A DNA stretch of 64,000 bases from Isoetes taiwanensis. Its lineage: Eukaryota > Streptophyta > Lycopodiopsida > Isoetales > Isoetaceae. Shown here one piece after another: positions 877 through 33,851 of the stretch. The stretch covers positions 11,247,317 through 11,311,316 of the forward strand of contig JAJEKV010000006.1 of the NCBI GenBank assembly GCA_021234155.1, read 5' to 3'. How positions within the stretch are numbered: the first letter of the stretch is position 1; the number at the start of each line of letters is the position of its first letter. A program made the translations under genes and the position numbers. Below the pieces are notes generated by a model that saw only the letters and a list, made by a program, of their open reading frames with translations, was not told the origin of the DNA and made no database searches.

Positions 877-1208
877 GTGAAGTAGAATTATTGAGGTGAA
901 TTATTGGGGTTGAATTCGGCGCCATTATTGCTCGTGTATAAGACCGTTGTATAAATACAAGTTTAATACATCTTTCGTATGGATATATATATGCTTTTAA
1001 AACGTGTGCTTGAAAACATGTTTGCTTGACGAATTTAGCTATGATTGAATTCAATGACAGCTTGCAGAATAAGTGGAGGTGGGATAGCACATCGTTACAA
1101 TATACTCAGTTAAGGTACTTGATATTACATCCTTAATCATAATGCTATTACATTCTTACTTAGTTATTAGATACCCATGTCATTATTACATTATTAGCAG
1201 GTGCAGAT

Positions 1209-1451
1209 TTACTCGTCATCAACATCAAAGCTCGTGATGCCATTCAGCTCATAGATCTCCTGGTAAGGAAGCCAGTAAATATAGACTTTAACACGAGTGA
1301 GCTTCCTGCAAGCACTAGCAGGTCCGTCAGCTTTAGATAAGAGCCATGGATCAAGCTTAACGCCATTTCTAGCGCATTCGCCCAGATCGTTGTAGCTCAA
1401 GTAACACTTGAAAGAGCGGATGTGCTCTGGACGAGGCATCGAGGAAGCCAT
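1209..1451 (-). CDS. Small 80-residue protein of E1, family unknown
   Basis: An intact 80-codon frame with a good start context, preceded 36 bp upstream by a TATA box. The product starts MASSMPRPEHIRSFKCYLSY and ends in an acidic DVDDE tail. It has three cysteines, a L-D-P-W motif and a W-L-P motif near the C-terminus. The copy at 24525-24767 in E2 differs at only a few residues, which implies recent common descent or selection. I see no signal peptide, membrane segment or known DNA-binding fold. Its fixed place at the element end, converging on the DUF7869-like gene, suggests an accessory function in transposition or silencing control; that is inference. Confidence 0.75.
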   Translation of the reverse strand: MASSMPRPEHIRSFKCYLSYNDLGECARNGVKLDPWLLSKADGPASACRKLTRVKVYIYWLPYQEIYELNGITSFDVDDE

Positions 1452-1480
1452 GGAAGATGAATGGCCTCTACCCCCTCGTC

Positions 1481-1494
1481 AAGCCGTTTTTATA
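1481..1494 (-). promoter_or_regulatory. TATA box of second E1 small gene
   Basis: The minus strand reads TATAAAAACGGCTT, 36 bp before the ATG at 1451. It is conserved base for base at 24482 in E2. Confidence 0.7.
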
Positions 1495-1731
1495 GTGAAG
1501 TAAAATTATTGATGTCAATTATTGGTGTACAATGTAGGGCCATTATTGACCTTATACGAGTGTCATGTACACCTACAAGTATAACACAAAATTTGTATGT
1601 ATATGTGTATGTTAATTACCTCATGTTTGTTGGGCTCGAGAACTAGGTGAAAGTATTCGTGCTTGAGCAAATAAGGTGTGCTGAAAATTCTCAAAATTGT
1701 GTTATTTTATCCAATTAATGAAATCATGCTT

Positions 1732-21979: not shown

Positions 21980-24244
21980 AGGGAGTCTGGTATCTAGACT
22001 CAGGTGCAAGCGACCATATGACCCTGACAAAAGGAGTTGTTTCTGGATTACCAGCCCAATAAGACAGGGAGAAAAGTGAGAATAGGCAAGGTTAAACTGA
22101 ACATTGCAGGAGTTGGGAGTGTAAAGCTCAGTTTGCCACAGGGGTCGTTGCACCTAAAGAATGTCCTTCACGTGTCGGACCTTGAGGCGAACTTGCTTTC
22201 CATATCAAAAATGGATGATGCGGGATTTTATATCAATTTTGGCAATGGCAGATGCATTGTGAAGGACAGGAAGGAGATCATTGCCACAGGGACAAGGGCT
22301 GGCAACATATACCAGCTTAGTTGGACTGCCAACTCTAGCACAACACTGACAGCAGTAGAACTGCAAAAGGCCAAGACATGGCATGAACGATTAAGGCATG
22401 CTAACTACCCTCTCATCAAACAGATGAAGGCACAGGAATTAGTCACTGGTCTGCCAAAGATTTCCAAGCCTCATGCCATTTGTGAAGGGTGTGTATTGGG
22501 TAAGCTCAAACGGAAACCATATAAGAAGGAGAAGACAAAAAGGGCAGCCAAACAGTTGGAACTGTCACACATCGATTTGTGGGGACCAGCCAGTGTAAAA
22601 TCACTTGGAGGATCCAAGTACTTCATGTTGGTGATCGATGACTTTAGTAGGAAGAACTGGGTGTTCTTCCTTAAACACAAATCAGAGGCTTTCGATACTT
22701 TCACCAAATGGAAGAGGGAGGTGGAAAAGCAAATTGAACAGGCGGTCAAAACCATAAGAACTGATCAGGGCAGGGAATTTCTCAATACCAAGTTCAGAAA
22801 TTTCCTACAAGATGCTGGAATCCACCACCAAAAGTCAGTAGTTTCTTCTTGGTATCAGAGCATCAACAAAACGGTGTGGTTGAAAGAAAAAACTGCACCA
22901 TATTGGAATGTGCTCGTGCAATGATCCATGGAAGAGGAATTGATCCAATTTTTTAAGCTGAAGCGGTACACACAGCATGCTACCTGCTAAATCGCATACC
23001 CACTAAAGCCAATCCAAATGTGGGTCCCAAAGAAATGTGGTCAGGCCACAAACCGGATGTGCATGAACTGAAAATCTTCGGCTGCAGGGCGTATGCACAC
23101 TTGAGCCAGCAAGAACGTCCTCGAGGTAAACTCTCTATGAGGGCAGTAGAATGCATGTTTGTCGGCTATAACGAGCACACAAAAAGATATCGTTTGTATG
23201 TTCCACTCACGAAGAAAATCATTGTGAGACGAAGTGTTGAGTTTGATGAACACACGTTCTTCTTTGGGAAAAGGGAGAAATCAAGCAGGCTTGAATGGTA
23301 TGAGGTAAATGCAGATGATGAAGCTAAGGAAGGTGCAGACCAATAGCATGATGTCCCACTAGAAGAAGCTGCTGCTAATGACATGGAAGATATCCCTTCT
23401 GAACCAGAGGAGACTGACCTTGAAGACAATGAGGAGCTCTCTGCTATGCCATTGAGGAGGTCCACAAGGAAGGCAGATCACAGATCGAATGCAAGCTTAT
23501 ATCGAATCTCGATCAGGTAAAACTGCCTCTTACATTGCCTTTCATAGTAATGCACCAGTAGATGAGCCTGCCCACTTTCAAGAGGCAATGGCCAGCATGC
23601 ATCATAAAGAATGGCACAATGCCATGACTGAAGAATATCAGTCCTTATTGGACAATGATACTTGGGACTTGTGCCATCTTCCTGCCAATAGAAAGGCTGT
23701 CGCTTGCAAATGGGTTTACAAGGTAAAATATGATGAACAAGGGAACATTGATAGATTCAAGGCACACTTGGTAGCCAAAGGATACTCATAAGTGCCAGGC
23801 ATAGACTTTCACGAAACTTTTGCTCCGGTTGCACGCCTCACCCCTGTTAGATTGGTCATCGCCTTAGCTGTAGTCCATGGCCTAGACTTATAACAAATGA
23901 ACGTCAAGACTGCCTTCCTTAATGGCAAACTTAAGGAAGCAGTCTACATGAAGCAAGCAGCAGGGTTTGTTCAAAAGGGACAAGAACAGTTAGTGTACAA
24001 GCTTAAAAGGGCCATTTATGGGCTCAGGCAATCATCATGACAGTGGTACCACACGATTGATCAATTCTTTACTCAAATGGGCTTTTCTCGCAGTTAAGCA
24101 GACTGGAACATATACTTTAAGTTTGATGGATCTAAAATGTTGCTTATAGTTCTTTACGTGGATGATCTGATCCTGGCCAGCAACTGTAAGACATTGATGC
24201 AGGACACCAAAGATGCTCTCAACCAACGCTTTCACATGACAGAC
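21980..24244 (+). pseudogene. Copia Pol (protease, integrase, reverse transcriptase), 5' part
   Basis: In order: aspartic protease with WYLDSGASDHMT near 21990; GAG-pre-integrase with TWHERLRHANY and a C-x2-C pair; integrase core with HIDLWGP, VIDDFSRKNWVF and RTDQGREF; a YLLNRIPTK motif; then reverse transcriptase from about 23600 with WVYKVKYDEQG, FAPVAR, KTAFLNG and the catalytic YVDDLILA. Internal stops are at 23789, 23891 and 24038, and there are several frameshifts. The last codons before E2 read RFHMTD. Confidence 0.9.
24241..24244. repeat. E2 target-site duplication, left copy (AGAC)
   Basis: AGAC precedes the E2 left end and is repeated at 33655-33658. Removing E2 plus one AGAC restores the copia codons ATG-ACA-GAC-CTT-GGG (M-T-D-L-G), so the 4-bp duplication is proved by the reading frame. 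Confidence 0.95.
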
Positions 24245-24270
24245 AAGCATGATTTCATTAATTGGATAAA
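24245..24270 (+). repeat. E2 left terminal inverted repeat
   Basis: Starts AAGCATGATTTCATTAATTG. The inverted right end starts AAGCATGAATTCATTAATTA; mismatches fall at positions 9, 20 and 23 of 26. Confidence 0.9.
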
Positions 24271-24481
24271 ATAACGCAATTTTGAGAATTTTCAGCACAC
24301 CTTATTTGCTCAAGCACGAATACTTTCACCTAGTTCTCGAGCCCAACAAACATGAGGTAATTAACATACACATATACATACAAATTTTGTGTTATACTTG
24401 TACGTGTACATGACACTCGTATAAGCTCAATAATGGCCCTACATTGTACACCAATAATTCACATCAATAATTTTACTTCAC

Positions 24482-24489
24482 TATAAAAA
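24482..24489 (+). promoter_or_regulatory. TATA box of the E2 small gene
   Basis: TATAAAAA lies 43 bp before the ATG at 24525, conserved with both E1 small genes. Confidence 0.7.
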
Positions 24490-24524
24490 CGGCTTCACGA
24501 GGGGGTAGAGGCCATTCATCTTCC

Positions 24525-24767
24525 ATGGCTTCCTCGATGCCTCGTCCAGAGCACATCCGCTCTTTCAAGTGTTACTTGAGCTACAACGATCTGGGCGAAT
24601 GCGCTAGAAATGGCGTTAAGCTTGATCCATGGCTCTTATCTAAAGCTGATGGACCTGCTAGTGCTTGCTGGAAGCTCACTCGCGTTAAAGTCCATATTTA
24701 CTGGCTTCCTGATCAGGAGATCTATGAGCTGAATGGCATCACGAGCTTTGATGTTGATGACGAGTGA
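24525..24767 (+). CDS. Small 80-residue protein of E2, family unknown
   Basis: An intact frame nearly identical to 1209-1451 (differences include R to W and Y to H or D). The Met lies at the same distance from a conserved TATA box, and the stop is followed by a shared AT-rich 3' flank that reaches the converging large gene. Conserved features are a K-C-Y core, L-D-P-W, the W-L-P motif and an acidic DVDDE end. It is one of only two intact E-element genes in the window, while the large E2 genes have decayed. Function unknown; no recognised domain. Confidence 0.75.
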   Translation: MASSMPRPEHIRSFKCYLSYNDLGECARNGVKLDPWLLSKADGPASACWKLTRVKVHIYWLPDQEIYELNGITSFDVDDE

Positions 24768-24996
24768 ATCTGCACCTGCTAATAATGTAATAATGACATG
24801 GATACCTAATAACTAAGTAAGGATGTAATAGCATTCTGATTAAGGATGTAATATCACGTACCTTAACTGAGTATATTGTAACGATGTGCTATCCCACCTC
24901 CACTTATTCTGCAAGCCCAACGTAATGAGATGCTTCAATGTGCTCATCCACAAACACTCTTTCGGGTTCTTCCAATGCACTTTGCCTGGTGCTGGG

Positions 24997-27633
24997 CTAG
25001 AAATCCTGAATGACAGCTCTACCGGGCTGCACGTCACCAAGCACTCGCAGCAAGGTGGACCAGTAGTCAATAACTTCATTCTTATATGTGTTGGACCATG
25101 ACTTATCGCCAGCTCTAGAAATAGCTGCCCAGTGCATCATGTACTTGGCAATAGAAGCTCTTAATGCACCTATATCTTTCAAGCTCCCATATGGCTGCAG
25201 GACCTTAGATGACCCTCTCGGAATCATAGGTAAACCTTGGGCATCCTCCTTCCACATTCTCGATTTCCCTTTCAGGGGGAGCCACTCCCTATGCCCCGCC
25301 TCATCTTGTAGAACATTAGTGGCCATCCATCCTTCATGCAAAACTTGAAGAGTAGAGGTTCCAAGTGACCACATAAACGGTCCTTCTTATCAGGGATAAA
25401 ACCTTTCACGAATTCCTTCCAATCAGGAACCTCTATCACAAGGTAAGGTGAAGGAGCCTTTGAACTACACTGCCTGAAGAGTTGCATAAGCTCCGGAATA
25501 GTCAATGCATCTGATCTTCTCATTAGAGTAGAGTAGTTTCCAAATAGGGCATCTATGTCATCGTGGGTGTGTCCAACCATCATGAATCCCAGCTGCACTT
25601 GATCAAAGACACCTAACCAAACCAAGTATGACAAGTAAGAGAAAAGATATCTATTCTTATTCTGACCTGAGCAATTATCTAGCTGCAAGTAAAGCCTCCT
25701 AGGCAACTTGTTTGCTACCATGGGGCCTTTGATAGGAGGCATAAAATCATTTCTACTGCCATTCATCATTTTTGTCCTAAGGTTATCTGTGTTTAAAATT
25801 CTTTGCACACCGGTTTGCTTTCAGGACGATCTGTATCTCTCAAATGGCCCCAATTATCCTCAGATTTATTCTCCAGTGTCTTCAAGGTATGATTCAAGGA
25901 TCCCACATGAAAATTAGAATCATCAGGCCAGAGGTCCAGTGAGAAGTGGCCCAAGGCACCTATACCATGGCCGTGCATGAAAGCACCTGTAACACTGACC
26001 TTCAGTCGTTCACCCCTCCATACAGACTTTGCTAGCTTCTCTAGGCGAGGGACCATGGTCTTATTCTGATCCATCTTATCATGTATAATGGTTAAAGCGT
26101 GCTTTCGGGGAGATCTATGCGACAAAGCTCTCGGGACCGATAAAGGCTCTCGCATGAAATCTGGGCGTCATATGCGATTTTTTCTCTATTGCAAGTACCC
26201 TTCTTTCGTTTGGATCTCTGGTCTTATCAAGCTTTTCCTTTATGACAATACAGGTGTTACACTTGGAAAATGCTATCCTCTTAGCTATTGCTACCTCTGA
26301 ATGATTCTCTTTCCAAGCAGACAGAAATGACGAAGGAGAAATATGCTTGCCTGTCATCTCTGTAACGGTAATATCTACTTCTTGGTGTATATCCTTCTTA
26401 GTCAAGACTGAAGGAAGCCTCTTAACATTTTGTCTGCTACCCTCGCTCGTAATTTTCGAGCGGTGTGGCATCGTCTCTGCGTTTTCATCTATGAACATGG
26501 ATATAATAAAGCATTGCCGACCAAAGTATGAGATCTTGGCTTCTTAGACCCAGTATTTCCGTGCTCAGCAATTCTGTGGCCGTCATTGAAGAGCTTCTTC
26601 CACTTGTAAAAAGTGGAAATGGGAATGCCATAGGCTTTATGCCATGCTTTCACGCACACCTGTTTGTTATTCAACATCAGTTTGCGGACTACACCATTTT
26701 CAGAGCAAAGATCTAGCATGTTATATGCAAAAGTTGTGTGCTCAGGGACTTCATGTTCAAAGAAAAGGTTCTCATGCAAGCTATCTCACGGGATGTAAAA
26801 TTTGCCTGGCATCGTTTCATGCAAAGACGGTGATGACTGAAGTCTAGAATAGCCTCAGCACTAGTTTTCTTTCACATTTAGTGCGTGTTGGGCGTGTTCG
26901 GGTCTCCGATTGACCATCTTTGTAAGGTCTCTTTTTGGTGATGCCAATTTCGGGTCTAATGGAGTAAGGTTCATTCTCCACATCCTTCTCCTTCACCGCA
27001 ACCACAAGAGTAGAAACTGGAATGTTATCAACGAGCACGAGGGCTATGGGCCATCTCACAAGGTCATGCAGTTGGGGCATTTTACGCACACGGGCCTGGC
27101 GGTAAGATAGAGATCTTTTCGGGCATTGGAAAAATGCTCATGATAGTAGCGACTATCGAGCCTTCCCCTAACTTCACGTCGGACCACGACATGGTTTGGA
27201 TCGGCAAAACGATAACACCATAGGCATAAGCCATGTGGCAAAGCATTCATGCATGAGTGCACGCCTTCTCAACTAACTCATCTCTAGAAAGCCCTTGCAC
27301 ATGATTCGTCTCATTACTGGCTAACCCCTCATTCCCCTCGTCCTGCCAGTCTATGCGTTTTATCTGACCTGGTGGGGTGCAAGCTTCCTCCTGTCTATCA
27401 AGTTGAGCAGCAATGTCCTTCTTGTACCACAACACAAAAGTCCCCACAGCTTCACCCATTTTTTCTATTTCCATTTCGGGAATTGGTAGCGATGAATTGT
27501 CCATCCGGAACATTCACAATTGAAACAACAACCATACCCTCGGGACGATCGAATTGTGATGGCGCCGAAATTGTGGACTCTTCCTTCGCCACCTTTTTCC
27601 CCCCCAGATAATCTGGTGAATTACATCAGCCAT
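24997..27633 (-). pseudogene. DUF7869-like protein, candidate transposase of E2
   Basis: On the minus strand a probable ATG at 27633 (MADVIHQIIW) is followed by frames that need several shifts. Order of recognisable parts: a helix-turn-helix-like segment (KQVCVKAWHKAYGIPISTFY, about 26680-26620) and HGNTGSKKPRSHT; a C-x2-C segment (KCNTCIVIKEKLDK) near 26240; IIHDKMDQNKT near 26090; HGIGALGHFSLD near 25950; and the core LDNCSGQNKNRY near 25660 plus GHTHDDIDALFG near 25560. This is the motif series of DUF7869 proteins, which I believe have an RNase-H-like core; a role as transposase is inference from its place in a mobile element. The frame stops at 24997, and the tail present in E1 is missing, apparently through a deletion ending at about 24916. 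Confidence 0.65.
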
Positions 27634-27658
27634 CCTGCAAACAAGAGGTCGTGAATAG

Positions 27659-27668
27659 CGCGGCCGCG
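27659..27668. repeat. Palindromic site 1 (CGCGGCCGCG core)
   Basis: AGCGCGGCCGCGAT: perfect 10-bp core, left flank degenerate. Confidence 0.7.
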
Positions 27669-27747
27669 ATCCTCGTAAGCAAAAAGCACTGTGATCATAA
27701 ACCACTACAAAAAATAGCAACTGAAAAATAAAAAATGGTCAGGACTT

Positions 27748-27761
27748 TCGCCACCGCGATC
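27748..27761. repeat. Palindromic site 2 (variant)
   Basis: TTCGCCACCGCGAT followed by C, a diverged copy with an intact right half-site. Confidence 0.5.
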
Positions 27762-27934
27762 TTATCGAGCATGGGTAAGAACGCAGCGGTCGGCGCTTTT
27801 GCAAGCATTCACACTAGTTTGTTTTCGATAAGAACTCGTGCAAATCACATTTCGAGGCTAGCTAGTGGTTTCAACTCAAAGTTATCGATAGCTGGGAGTT
27901 CTTTGGTCAATAGCAAGTGTAGATGGTTGAAGGT

Positions 27935-27948
27935 ATCGCGACCGCGAT
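27935..27948. repeat. Palindromic site 3
   Basis: ATCGCGACCGCGAT, one central change from the consensus ATCGCGGCCGCGAT. Confidence 0.75.
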
Positions 27949-28865
27949 CTCGTAGAGCATCAAAGTTAAACGATTGACTTACAGAATAAAGCATTACTCA
28001 TACCTCACAGAATACGGTGGCGTCAACGTCAACTTGTAGCCGAGGACCCGTCAGAAGCTGCAGTGTCATAAAAACAGTGTTTTGTTTCATCCACATGGAG
28101 AAAGAAAGCATATACTTGAAACACGTTTACATTGTATAATAAACACACCAGAGTGCACAGGTTTGCTTAGAACATCTATTTTTGCATAGTTGCAACAAAG
28201 TATCAGGAGGTATCTTATCAATCCATGCAATACATAGTGAAGTTAGTGCAGAGACTCGGAGGTTGTAGTTATAATTGAAATTCAGTGCAACATAAACGTT
28301 GAGTTCACTTCAGTGAGGGATATGCATCAGAATAGGCCTTTTACCTTGCCCGAAACCCTGAATTCGATGCAGTTGAAGAATTCCGAATGTGTAGTGGCGG
28401 ATTGCAAGCGGATTATCAGCGCCCTCGTCAGTGCCTTCAATGGATGCGAATTCGCGGCAAATCCTTGCCGAACTTGGCCCGGCTTAATTTTAGACTCGGC
28501 GCCTCGAAGATCTTGCAAAACAATGAAATTTGAATTGGCTTTTCCCGCTTTCTCGAATTGGTTTGTTCTCGAATTCAAATTTTACAGTCACTGTCCGTTC
28601 GTAAACCGGTTTTTTGTGGGGCATTTATGGCTGCATACTGTGTCAGGTCCGAAATTACGGCCCAAAATTGAACGCGGACGTCCAAGTTGATAAAGACCTT
28701 TTGTACGGATTACTTGCCTTTTTGGACGGGTATATTCGCACGACCGCATTTATGTCAGGGAATAAATACGGCCGGCCGGCCGGTAATTATTACTTCCGGC
28801 GTACGACGCCATTATGGCTGGCACGTTTTTTCACGCGCCATTATGATGGGCGGGCAATTAATTTC

Positions 28866-28875
28866 CGCGGCCGCG
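28866..28875. repeat. Palindromic site 4
   Basis: Perfect CGCGGCCGCG core, just upstream of the TATA box of the rightward gene. Confidence 0.7.
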
Positions 28876-29076
28876 TTCTATAAATTGAAACTCAGAACAT
28901 TTAAAAACAAATTTCAACTCCGCGATTTCTTTCAGCGCCTAGCGCCTTCGCCCTCCGAGCGCCTTCTCGAGCCTCTCCAAAAGGACTCGAATTTCGTACT
29001 CAGCCAGCGCCCGCGATCCCATGGCACCTAAGGACTCCCTCAGAGAAGGTATTTTCTAACATTTCAGCTCAGCAAC

Positions 29077-29417
29077 ATCGCGGCCGCGATCTTGCCTACT
29101 AGAACTTCTATTGTTTTCATAAGTATAGCTGCTCAGCAAGATCGCGGCCGCGGTCTTGCTTGCTAGGTTTTGTAATTTCTTGATAGCGGTCTTCATAAGT
29201 GTAGCTGCTCAACAAGATCGCGGCCGCGGTCTTGCTGAGCATAGATTTTCTTTCTTGCGATGTTCATGAGTACTAGTGTAGTATGTCATTAGGATCGCGA
29301 CCGCGATGTTCATGAGCAGTGAAATTGTTTTCTTGCCGTGCTTAAGTGCTACACAACATCGCGGCCGCGATAGTGTGGAGTGCTATTTTAGCTGCTTGGC
29401 AGGATCGCGGTCGCGTT
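29077..29417. repeat. Cluster of six palindromic sites in intron 1
   Basis: Sites at 29077, 29141, 29217, 29294, 29358 and 29404, each 14 bp and matching ATCGCGGCCGCGAT with 0-2 changes, spaced 46-77 bp. Around 29141 and 29217 the symmetry extends outward (AGCAAG before, CTTGCT after), giving near-perfect palindromes of 26 and 34 bp. These two also share about 43 bp and look tandemly duplicated with a 76-bp period. The whole cluster lies inside the inferred first intron (29049-29496). Confidence 0.85.
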
Positions 29418-31073
29418 TCTCTACAGTAGTTTATACCTTTTCGTTGCACCACATTATGCAGCCTACCAGGCACTCACCACAGGCTTTTGTTTACAGCACT
29501 TGCTCTCTTCCGAGGACCGGATGTCGAGCCCGTCCGTATTATAACCCCTTCCAATGAAAGGAAATGGTGTATTGAGATTGCACAGGCTATACCGCACATT
29601 AAGGGTGATCGCAGAAAGGACCTGTGCTTGTTTCTGCGGACTGGAAAAAAACCTGAGGACGTTGAACAAGTTGGCATAGTGGTGGCAATGTGGGAAGGCA
29701 CGAAGAACAATGTGCAAGATGCTATCATATGCAGCATTGAGGACACACAAGCATTGCAGTTCCTGGAGTACATTTTGAAATGGCGCAATTATGACCCGTC
29801 TCTGATGACAGCCAGCAAAATGAACAAGCCAGCCACAGGGAAAAACGTCCCCACGTCAGCTAAGGGTTATGGCTGGTTGTTGCCATCCTATGAATCTCTC
29901 TCTTTGTCAGGAATAAAGGGAAACAGAGACATATTGCTCGGGTTCTCGGCATGCAGAAATGGTTTGTCTACAGACAAGAAGCCTCCGAGCTGTGCCTTGA
30001 AAGCAGTTCGGGACGAGAAGATGCCCTCCGTGATGGACACCAATTGTCTAAGAGCCGTGGCCAAGAAAAAGAGTGTGAAGCCTATTGCTACTTTGGGAGA
30101 GACATCAGCACCAAAAGAGGTTGTTCAAGAACCACAATCCACGATAAACCCCTCCGGTATTGTTAACCCTACTCTTCCTCTTGCTATGAAGGCCCCAGAT
30201 AGCACTACATCTGGTGGATTTATTCCAAAAAAACTCCCTCCTTTCAGAATTAGCCTTAGGAATCTGACACCTACTGAAGATAGCCCGCAGCCCAGCAGTT
30301 CTCAAACCCCCCCCTCAGTTACGGATGCCTCCTCTAGACTAGCATTGACATGGCCCCACGCACCTGCCATTCCAGTCGAGTTGAAGTTCAATCCCGAAGA
30401 GGAACGCAAGATGGCAGAGCAAACCACCCAGAAGCTTGAACAGTTCAAAAGGTTCTACCCCTTAGGGGTTAATTGGTTTACAAAGATTTCTATTTTTGAT
30501 TGTGAACCTGCACCAGCAAACTTGACACGGGAGAATGCGATCAAATGACCATGTTCAAACTCGGTTAAAAGCTTCAAGACATACAGAAGTGAGAGGTCCA
30601 CACACCCGACGCGTCGTTCCGTTTGACCCTATTACTAAGTAACTAATTCTTTATCTTTTGGACACTCGTTATGTAGATTTGTACTGACGGTTGTCTATCT
30701 TTCAGGAGGAGGATGACATGGAGCAATCCAGAAGATTTGAAGGGCAAGAAATTTTATATTATTTCTGGCAACCACAGTATTTGCGCTGCACAACTTCTTT
30801 GTTCGGTCGTCGGCGAGTTGGAGCAGCAACGAGAATTTGCCAAAGTATATGCTAGAAAAAGATCGAGGGTGCTCAACGGAAATCTTACAGACAAGGAATA
30901 TATAGAGTTGATGCAACGAAGTAATTGCAAACACCGTGTACAGAGAGCCACTGATTGAAAAACTGCAACAACTTCGTCATCAGCACAAGGCTTATGGCTG
31001 CCCTCCACAAGGACCTATAGGGACAGCTAAAACTTCAGCTTGGAAGGTATTTATTTGTTTTCTACTCGCCAAC

Positions 31074-31087
31074 TTCGCGGCCGCGAT
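31074..31087. repeat. Palindromic site inside intron 3
   Basis: TTCGCGGCCGCGAT lies in the 69-bp intron 31047-31115. Because that intron is a multiple of three with no stop, it could also be retained and translated. Confidence 0.7.
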
Positions 31088-33261
31088 CTTGATGACCTTG
31101 AAATTGCTTCTGCAGGATTTCCATGAAATTGCAACGACCACCTTGAAAGTGCAGGAGCTTAAGGATGAAAAACAATTCATTTTTATGGATGAGAAGGTTT
31201 TCAAGAAGTTAATGGAAGTTGCCGGTATGTGGGTGAGTCGTAAACTCAGTGACGACCATGGTGACTTTCCAGACAAGCCATCGAAAGACTTCTTTAACAA
31301 GACCTGGCTCCGGTTGCTACGAGGTATGTCGAATGCAGAGGTGTCACAGCTGCTCGATGAGATTATAGAAGGCAAGACCTATTTGAAGGTGCAGTCAGGT
31401 TATAGCGGGAGATTTGATTGCAAACAATGGGCAACTGACATCAGAACCCTCACTTTTATGAGGCGAGAAATTTTATCTTATGCCACAAATTTGCTGCAAA
31501 GGGATTTCTATAGCTGGGACGAATTGCTTCAGGCTTTTCCTGATTTGGTGAGCGAGAGAATCTTGGATATATCGGATCTCGATCTGAGAATACGTGAAGG
31601 CTAACTATAACAAGGATCATACACTTGGTAACCTACCTGTAGCCTTTCTGGAGCCAGTCAGGAATATTCTAAAGCCAGAGGAGGCTAGAAAAAGAAAGGA
31701 AAAGAGAAATATTGTCATAGCAGTGACAAAGGATGGCATCCCTACTTCCTCCCAAGTGTCAGAGAATGCGACATTGATATTTATTGACATCCGAGGGATA
31801 AACAAGGTATGGGATTGCAAGAAATACACAGATCTATTTACAAGGATATCTACCATGACGAATGCCAAAGTTTATCACTTGGTCATTATCATGCGCTCAG
31901 TGAATTTGCCCAATTGCTTGTACAGTCAGAAGCAAATTCAGGGCGGTGGCTACCTATCTTTAGGTTCTTATGAAGAAATGGGATGGGAGAGCAAACGAAG
32001 GGTGAAAGAACATCAGTACTTTATTAGTCATATGTGCATTAACAGAGTGATGTTAGGTGTAGCACCTTTGTGCAACCAGAGCTGGAGCTTCACCTATCTC
32101 CACTGCGGCAAGGCTCCTAAGTCAACACCATTGCCTCCAATGCCACCGGCGGTGTAATGAGGATGCCGGCGAGAAGATAAAAAGAAATATCGGACTCTTT
32201 TACAGGCAAACCAAGATTCAAATGGGCGGCAATGGAAGGAGATCTTGTATTGAAATGCCCATTTGAAAACCTCGTATGCCTACCATATTGTTGAGCGGTG
32301 GTGCCGATCGATGGTTGCGTTCGGATTTCTTTTCTATTTGGGGCCGGCTTCGTGTTGCTCTTATGCAAGGCAAAAAGAGCGTGGCTTTCGAAAGTTCAGG
32401 TAAAGTGTGCCGTTTCCTGAGGGCGTTCTTTGAAACGCTTGATAAAATGGCCAATCCAAGTGCGGATGGGTTTGAAGAAGAGGAGAAAGCAGAGAATGTT
32501 GAGCCTGATCCAGGGATGCCCAACATCAGTATCACCCAAAACACAGATCTATCAAAGTTGGATTCCATTTTGGAAAACCTCGATGCTAAGTCCTACGAAG
32601 AGAGAATGCAAGAAACAAAACGCTTGCTTGAAGAGACGGAAAAAGGTATAGAAGCCCTGGAGCCCACTTTTCAAAAATTGAGTGCACTTAATGAGAAGCT
32701 TGATGGGTACATGCCTTTCTTGACAGGCGAACATAAGTTTGAATACGTGGGCGTAGAACACATGGAAACAGACCACCAGCACATGGAAGCAGACCAACAA
32801 AGACATGGAGGCCCGACCAAGATGAGGTTCTTGGGACACGGGGAGCATCGGTACACAAAGAAGAAGCGAAGCTCTCTCATCCACGAGAATGCTCTTGAAT
32901 CGGAGAAGGAACTTATAGGCGGGAGGCTGATCACGGTGGACAAAGTGAAAAATGGGAGCCCGATTCACATCTGCGGCAAGATCATAAACGCCATGGGTGT
33001 TGAGATTCCGAGGAGGTCACGTGTTATTCGAGGAGATGGACACAACACAAGCTATGGAATTGGGTAGAGAGCATGTCACCCGCATGGCCAATGAAATGGG
33101 TGTGATACCTGATCAAGTATCTGAAACACAATCAGAATAATTATTGCCTTCAATCAGAATAATTATGTTGTATATTACTTCCTTCAATGGAAATTTTGGT
33201 TTCGGGAATTTTGGTTTTGTCTTTACCCATATCTTTTACCATATGTTTAATGCTAAAAATA

Positions 33262-33275
33262 ATCGCGACCGCGAT
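33262..33275. repeat. Palindromic site near E2 right end (a)
   Basis: ATCGCGACCGCGAT, identical to site 3. Confidence 0.75.
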
Positions 33276-33410
33276 CCTCTGTAGCAATTATATGGCTTTA
33301 AATACTAAATTTTTGTGATATGCTTGCTCCTCGGTACCTTCTTTTAACACAATGCTCTCATATGGTTTTAATAAAAGGCTCATTATTTTGTCACCTTTCA
33401 GCTGCGAAAC

Positions 33411-33424
33411 ATCGCGTTCGCGCT
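33411..33424. repeat. Palindromic site near E2 right end (b)
   Basis: ATCGCGTTCGCGCT, a variant copy 230 bp from the element end. Confidence 0.55.
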
Positions 33425-33628
33425 TCTTGCGAGAAGTTTGAACACTCCCTCCTACTACGTTCTATTCGCGGTGAACCTTTGCATTAGCTGTAAAAATTAT
33501 ATTTCCGAATAACACTGAAGCATTTGCAGAATTTGTGCAAAAAAACGCCAACTTTTACTCAATTGGTAGTAGTTTTTGCACTATATGGCTACCCGCTAAC
33601 CTATTTCATGCTAAACGAGAATTCCAAA

Positions 33629-33654
33629 TTTCTCTAATTAATGAATTCATGCTT
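33629..33654 (-). repeat. E2 right terminal inverted repeat
   Basis: The inverted form begins AAGCATGAATTCATTAATTA. The TSD AGAC follows at 33655-33658. Confidence 0.9.
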
Positions 33655-33851
33655 AGACCTTGGGACACTAAGGTACCTTCTTGGAATATAGGTATGCAGG
33701 GATCCAACCACTTGTAGCATCACGTTGCATCAAACCAGTCCCTACTCCACAAATGTAACATGGACTCAAGTAAGTCTGTTACAACCCCTGCTACCATTCA
33801 ATGTGTGAACTCTTTAAAAGGCATAAATTCTGAAATGCAAGCCATCCATCC
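33655..33851 (+). pseudogene. Copia reverse transcriptase, continuation after E2
   Basis: The frame continues directly from the part before E2: L-G-T-L-R-Y-L-L-G-I, then a stop at 33689 where copia proteins normally have Q (LGIQV), then VCRDPTTCSITLHQT. A later frame gives MDSSKSVTTPATIQ, the usual K-x-V-x-T-P region before RNase H. It breaks off at 33852, where the duplicated segment begins. Confidence 0.85.

Follow-up and report, generated by a model that had tools for sequence, protein, structure and literature searches.

Transposons of the Sola superfamily carry terminal inverted repeats (TIRs) and an RNase H-like DDE/D domain and, as is the case for Sola1 itself, are flanked by 4-bp target-site duplications (TSDs). 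In the portions of the literature available, the TSDs of Sola2 are described as AT-rich (PMC3627910), Sola1 is listed for Physcomitrella (PMC9033089), and the words Sola and ParB were not found in the available part of a giant-transposon review (PMC6431247). The closest described system, and the only one retrieved by a literature search combining ParB-like, methyltransferase, transposon and algal, is Sola1-1_Ec32, a 21.5-kb Sola-1 transposon of Ectocarpus reported in a 2025 study (PMC12477816); the available part of that report describes a ParB-like and N4/N6 DNA methyltransferase gene opposite the transposase, and its authors propose that the product binds and marks the element that encodes it. 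Here we analysed a 64-kb stretch of the Isoetes taiwanensis genome, hereafter the window, which contains a 9410-bp element with the same arrangement. We interpret the element as a two-gene cut-and-paste transposon, most likely of the Sola-1 type, of which the present copy is decayed and non-autonomous and whose second gene product would bind palindromes for self-recognition, marking and regulation; we give this interpretation a probability of roughly 0.6. The pairing of a transposase with a ParB-like/methyltransferase gene was already known from algae (PMC12477816, available part); the present work adds palindrome arrays that differ between families, one family in which a methylase motif appears to have been lost, and a model of self-recognition.

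The limits of the element, 24245 and 33654, proved to be exact as first claimed. Its 26-nt ends (24245–24270 and 33629–33654) are 88% complementary, AGAC is present at each flank, and joining the flanks in silico after excision of the element and one AGAC restored a copia reverse-transcriptase frame, all in agreement with the original prediction. The host copia copy has stops of its own besides the interrupted frame. A search of the 1.66-Gb assembly (1110 contigs) with the left 501 bases of the element yielded at least 40 left ends at 96–100% identity (40 scored among 1708 candidates), a range that reflects the selection of copies by similarity in these 501 bp and is no evidence of conservation. 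Twenty regions around left ends were retrieved, together with the right ends of eight; two more right ends (L009 and L020) lay inside the regions, giving 11 copies with both ends when the window copy is included. An identical 4-bp TSD was found in 10 of these 11 copies, the exception being L015, and none of the 110 mismatched left/right pairings between copies, used as a control, shared a 4-bp flank. The TSDs (AATA, CTCA, TTTT, TAAT, CTTC, AGTT, ATTT, ATAA, TTAA and AGAC) were AT-leaning but not restricted. The window element is a real insertion, and a decayed copy of a large eukaryotic transposon.

The element had initially been described as complete, which was dropped on account of a deletion near 24915. 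Compared with eight other full-length copies, which measured 10,401–10,935 bp, the window copy lacks 1.0–1.6 kb at this point and a further 85 alignment columns near 29236, and both of its genes are interrupted by frameshifts. Pairwise identity among the eight long copies and the window copy was 90.8–95.5%. L009 and L020 are shorter copies still flanked by TSDs, which would fit mobilisation in trans. Within the window, a further copy of the element is represented by its left end at positions 1060–1731 (minus strand; 672 bp, 97.5% identical). In C1041, three left ends at 10233855, 10240333 and 10246793 (L026, L027) follow one another at intervals of about 6.48 kb and share the same 12-bp flanks; they mark a tandem duplication including an element fragment. 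Two loci, L014 and L022, have AAGCATGA, the terminal sequence of the window element's family, at their left end, with a transposase only 55–74% identical, and form a second subfamily, probably the older one, with this left end in common.

The minus-strand gene (gene 1) encodes a protein of the family DUF7869. The minus-strand frames matched Pfam PF25273 (DUF7869) with E values of 3.4e-38 and 7.3e-5, and 25 DUF7869 homologues were 27–49% identical. For a sister family (L045–L048), the transposase of which is 34–37% identical to that of the window family in the core, the DUF7869 core was predicted to adopt an RNase H-like fold (predicted local distance difference test score, pLDDT, 77) with Asp at the usual three positions, and the window copy retains the three Asp. 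In a structure search with this core model, all 50 of the PDB matches listed were retroviral integrases or DDE transposases. An earlier DUF7869 model (pLDDT 64), from which the first catalytic strand was absent, gave no RNase H match among the 50 matches listed, these being taken by the C-terminal barrel and the helical part, and the DUF7869 profile, searched against PDB sequences, returned a single match with an E value of 0.7. Because of the RNase H-like model, the matches to integrases and DDE transposases, and the three Asp at the usual positions, we strongly infer that DUF7869 is very probably the transposase of the element. This function had been proposed from the outset, with an RNase H fold and three acidic residues anticipated in the predicted structure of a homologue; both were found in the sister-family core model, and the gene belongs to a mobile element bounded by TIRs and 4-bp TSDs. 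A role as an accessory nuclease, with the element moved in trans by another enzyme, appears very improbable: fold similarity is no proof of activity, but among the element's proteins an integrase-like fold was found for DUF7869 alone (gene 2 was not modelled), its three Asp occur in the expected order, and DUF7869 is present in both families examined.

A literature search for the word DUF7869 found no paper. With the present analysis, an uncharacterised, highly multicopy family gains a probable function as a transposase. As a candidate classification, KDZ (Kyakuja-Dileera-Zisupton) was rejected after a Pfam scan of three DUF7869 proteins, with E values up to 1, reported DUF7869 alone. In viral contigs, three stretches fitted the DUF7869 pattern and none was confirmed.

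The second gene (gene 2) is oriented away from gene 1 and begins at a distance of about 1.8 kb. The ParB/methyltransferase-like coding regions were present on the plus strand as predicted. The additional small-protein genes of the original prediction were not recovered: besides the two long gene regions, the element holds one candidate N-terminal exon, and no separate small-protein gene was found, very short frames being left unexamined. The gene-2 frames of the window copy had no good match in Pfam, PHROGs or NCBIfam, gene-2 protein searches gave no match at an E value of 0.001, and ParB-like domain models did not match these frames. L022 carries a homologue with main pieces 45–59% identical, and the differences between the two at codon positions 1, 2 and 3 were 0.39, 0.34 and 0.63 (434 codons). 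This codon structure appears comparable to that of the C-terminal part of gene 1, for which the corresponding values were 0.35, 0.30 and 0.59 (431 codons). This L022 homologue with codon structure, together with a divergently oriented homologue in the sister family, shows that gene 2 is a real gene.

The sister-family neighbour contains the ParB-like motif VLGGNHSFKARRQL. Its similarity to TIGR03764 (ParB-like) was below the cut-off in both L046 (E value of 0.002) and L047 (0.041), and a match to DUF6551 was also weak (0.0019). Further downstream, as seen in L048, lies a methylase with ADLPYG and DAFSGSGTT; the sister-family gene 2 matched Pfam N6_N4_Mtase with an E value of 2.1e-17, and the best solved relative of the methylase by sequence was CcrM (3.4e-9). 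The N6/N4 methylase encoded by the sister-family gene 2 is intact. The catalytic motif IV of amino-methyltransferases is of the [DNS]PP[YFW] type. In the window family, the place of the ParB-like motif is occupied by YIISGNHSICAAQ and that of motif IV by FIDIRG, in both the window frame and the reading of nine copies (aligned by eye with the sister-family ADLPYG); no motif of the [DNS]PP[YFW] type was found at this by-eye position, and there was no Pfam methylase match. In L022, motif I reads LDFFSGGSAS, with a weak match to N6_N4_Mtase (0.069). Gene 2 of the window copy reads as a divergent ParB-like/DNA-methyltransferase protein gene, and the catalytic methylase motif appears to have been lost in the window family with the gene still under constraint. 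No ParA was found in the frames examined.

With at most one mismatch allowed, the window contains 11 sites of the palindrome TCGCGRYCGCGA, all of them inside the element, compared with 0.06 in shuffled sequences. Each of the nine copies (eight and the window copy) has 7–11 sites, similarly placed; in L022 there are six, in the intergenic region and in gene 2, and in L014 two. In the sister family the palindrome is a different one, TATTCCGGAATA, situated inside longer palindromes of up to 34 bp and not found in the window. It occurs 8, 9 and 11 times in L045, L046 and L047, respectively (expected 0.00–0.02), between the genes in all three and also within gene 2 in L046 and L047. Since the palindromes are family-specific, like-placed and next to a ParB-like gene, they suggest a reader with its own candidate sites.

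The divergent arrangement of the two genes was further examined by comparing the DUF7869 matches listed (150 of 9902 candidates) with the sister ParB-region matches listed (150 of 3387), a comparison that tests arrangement and not frequency. Thirty-two pairs lay within 15 kb of each other, against 0.41 expected from uniform placement, and 31 of them were divergent; the other 118 listed DUF7869 matches had no partner among the listed ParB-region matches. Gene 2 is on the strand opposite the transposase in the window as well.

The gene set had been thought to correspond to no known DNA transposon superfamily, a view abandoned in light of the same gene pair in the Ectocarpus Sola-1 transposon (PMC12477816, available part); the 4-bp TSDs also fit Sola. 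By analogy, the window element is most likely of the Sola-1 type: it shares with the Sola superfamily TIRs (26 bp here), 4-bp TSDs (10 of 11 copies) and an RNase H-like DDE/D domain, here predicted for the sister-family core, and differs from Sola2 in its unrestricted TSDs. Sola1-1_Ec32, to which it is likened by published description, is also a large DNA transposon; it differs in measuring 21.5 kb against 10.4–10.9 kb here, and the available part of its report does not mention family-specific palindrome arrays (PMC12477816); the window family differs further in its apparently degenerate methylase motif. Among bacterial systems, ParB-parS resembles the locus in having a ParB-like motif (GNHS..AA) beside palindromic sites, and CcrM-type methylases include the nearest solved structure by sequence, whereas here both belong to one gene of a eukaryotic transposon and the sites lie inside a mobile element.

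In the model that we favour, the product of gene 1 would be a DDD transposase of the RNase H-like type that has an N-terminal region and, at the C-terminus, a chromo/Tudor-like domain; this enzyme would cut at AAGCATGA ends and make the 4-bp duplications. The divergent gene 2 would encode a fusion of a ParB-like protein with a DNA methyltransferase of the beta class (CcrM-like). This fusion protein would bind the palindromes of the shared promoter region and those inside gene 2; where the catalytic motif of a family is intact, it would also methylate the DNA of the element. In this way the element would recognise, mark and regulate its own copies. We infer the palindrome binding, the self-marking and their consequence, which may be anti-silencing or transposition control. 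A broader proposal, to which we give somewhat less than even odds, is that of a transposon superfamily with its own self/non-self system, in which each family has a ParB-like reader and matching parS-like arrays, placed in its promoter region and inside the reader gene, some families write a bacterial-type DNA mark, and at least one lineage seems to be reader-only, for example in anti-silencing. The published idea of ParB-methylase genes marking their own transposon (PMC12477816, available part) is now tied to concrete candidate binding sites, and the different palindromes at like places in two families open their specificity to a direct two-protein, two-DNA comparison.

At the place of motif IV, L022 reads FVDIVVFPPRG followed by a stop, an ambiguous reading in a broken copy that weakens the broader proposal. 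Motif IV of the window family looks degenerate, and L014 has no gene-2 match within the 10 kb examined. Moreover, CpG-rich palindromes can serve as host factor sites, and might do so here. These last points would suit an ordinary transposon of this superfamily in which gene 2 is cargo without a role and the palindromes are promoter or chromatin-boundary sites for host proteins. We regard this as unlikely, as the divergent pair occurs in two families whose transposase cores share only about 35% identity, gene 2 is under codon constraint between subfamilies, and the palindromes are like-placed yet different in sequence between families, as expected if reader and sites co-evolved within families. 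VANC proteins of VANDAL elements bind the element's own DNA and act in anti-silencing; VANDALs belong to the Mutator-like elements (MULEs) and make TSDs of about 9 bp, as opposed to 4 bp here, and VANC is not ParB/methylase-like, the likeness lying in an element-encoded protein and an element-specific short motif repeated in non-coding DNA. A VANC-like anti-silencing function of gene 2, binding the element's own DNA with methylation dispensable, would explain the loss of the catalytic motif in the window family, and the constraint on gene 2 with a degenerate-looking motif and the dense short motif in the element's non-coding parts are consistent with it. Both methylase motifs are kept in the sister family, however, and the motif is ambiguous in the L022 subfamily, which makes this alternative rather doubtful, if less so than the cargo explanation.

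Table 1. Features of the element and its flanks (window coordinates)
Feature	Position	Strand	Details
TSD, left copy	24241..24244	.	AGAC
Left TIR, 26 bp	24245..24270	+	same end in other copies; 1–2 differences in L015, L016, L028
Internal deletion junction, 1.0–1.6 kb	24912..24916	.	relative to eight full-length copies, in which the transposase C-terminus is probably encoded there
Gene 1, broken DUF7869 gene (probable transposase)	24916..27640	-	frames 24997-25386, 25272-25820, 25793-26167, 26115-26543
Candidate catalytic Asp 3 (GHTHDDID)	25551..25553	-	invariant column, alignment of 26
Candidate catalytic Asp 2 (LQLDN)	25677..25679	-	invariant column, alignment of 26
Candidate catalytic Asp 1 (IIHDKMDQ)	26078..26080	-	
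Gene 1, N-terminal exon candidate	~27200-27620	-	reading of nine copies
TCGCGRYCGCGA-type palindromes	27658..27947	.	at 27658, 27748 and 27936, directly upstream of gene 1
Palindrome array	29078..29416	.	at 29078, 29142, 29218, 29295, 29359 and 29405, 46–77 bp apart, upstream of gene 2
Gene 2, broken ParB-like/methyltransferase-like gene	29480..33070	+	frames 29430-30548, 30912-31604, 31588-32157, 32267-33067
Palindrome inside gene 2	31075..31086	.	probable intron
Palindrome downstream of gene 2	33263..33274	.	
Right TIR, 26 bp	33629..33654	-	compared with right ends of 10 other copies
TSD, right copy	33655..33658	.	AGAC

The ends of the sister families were also compared with those of the window family. 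The AAGCATGA end was absent from all 12 sister DUF7869 loci, which comprise the 3.6-kb pieces L029–L036, which need not reach an end, and L045–L048, among which L045–L047 are 10-kb loci. In L045–L047, a different sequence stands in place of AAGCATGA where the left similarity begins. The original prediction had taken DUF7869 homologues regularly found without these ends as an argument against a transposase function; judged from L045–L047, such homologues probably do exist, and the transposase idea itself is not overturned. The absence of AAGCATGA from the sister loci points to a superfamily with family-specific ends and not to a wrong transposase idea. For the sister family, the left end is likely to lie at about 3412–3460 of L045 and at the equivalent positions of L046 and L047, where GAAACGGGAGCAAA occurs once or twice. 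A 650-bp foldback (L045:2746–3401), forming an 81% inverted repeat with itself, adjoins the left limit of the sister element.
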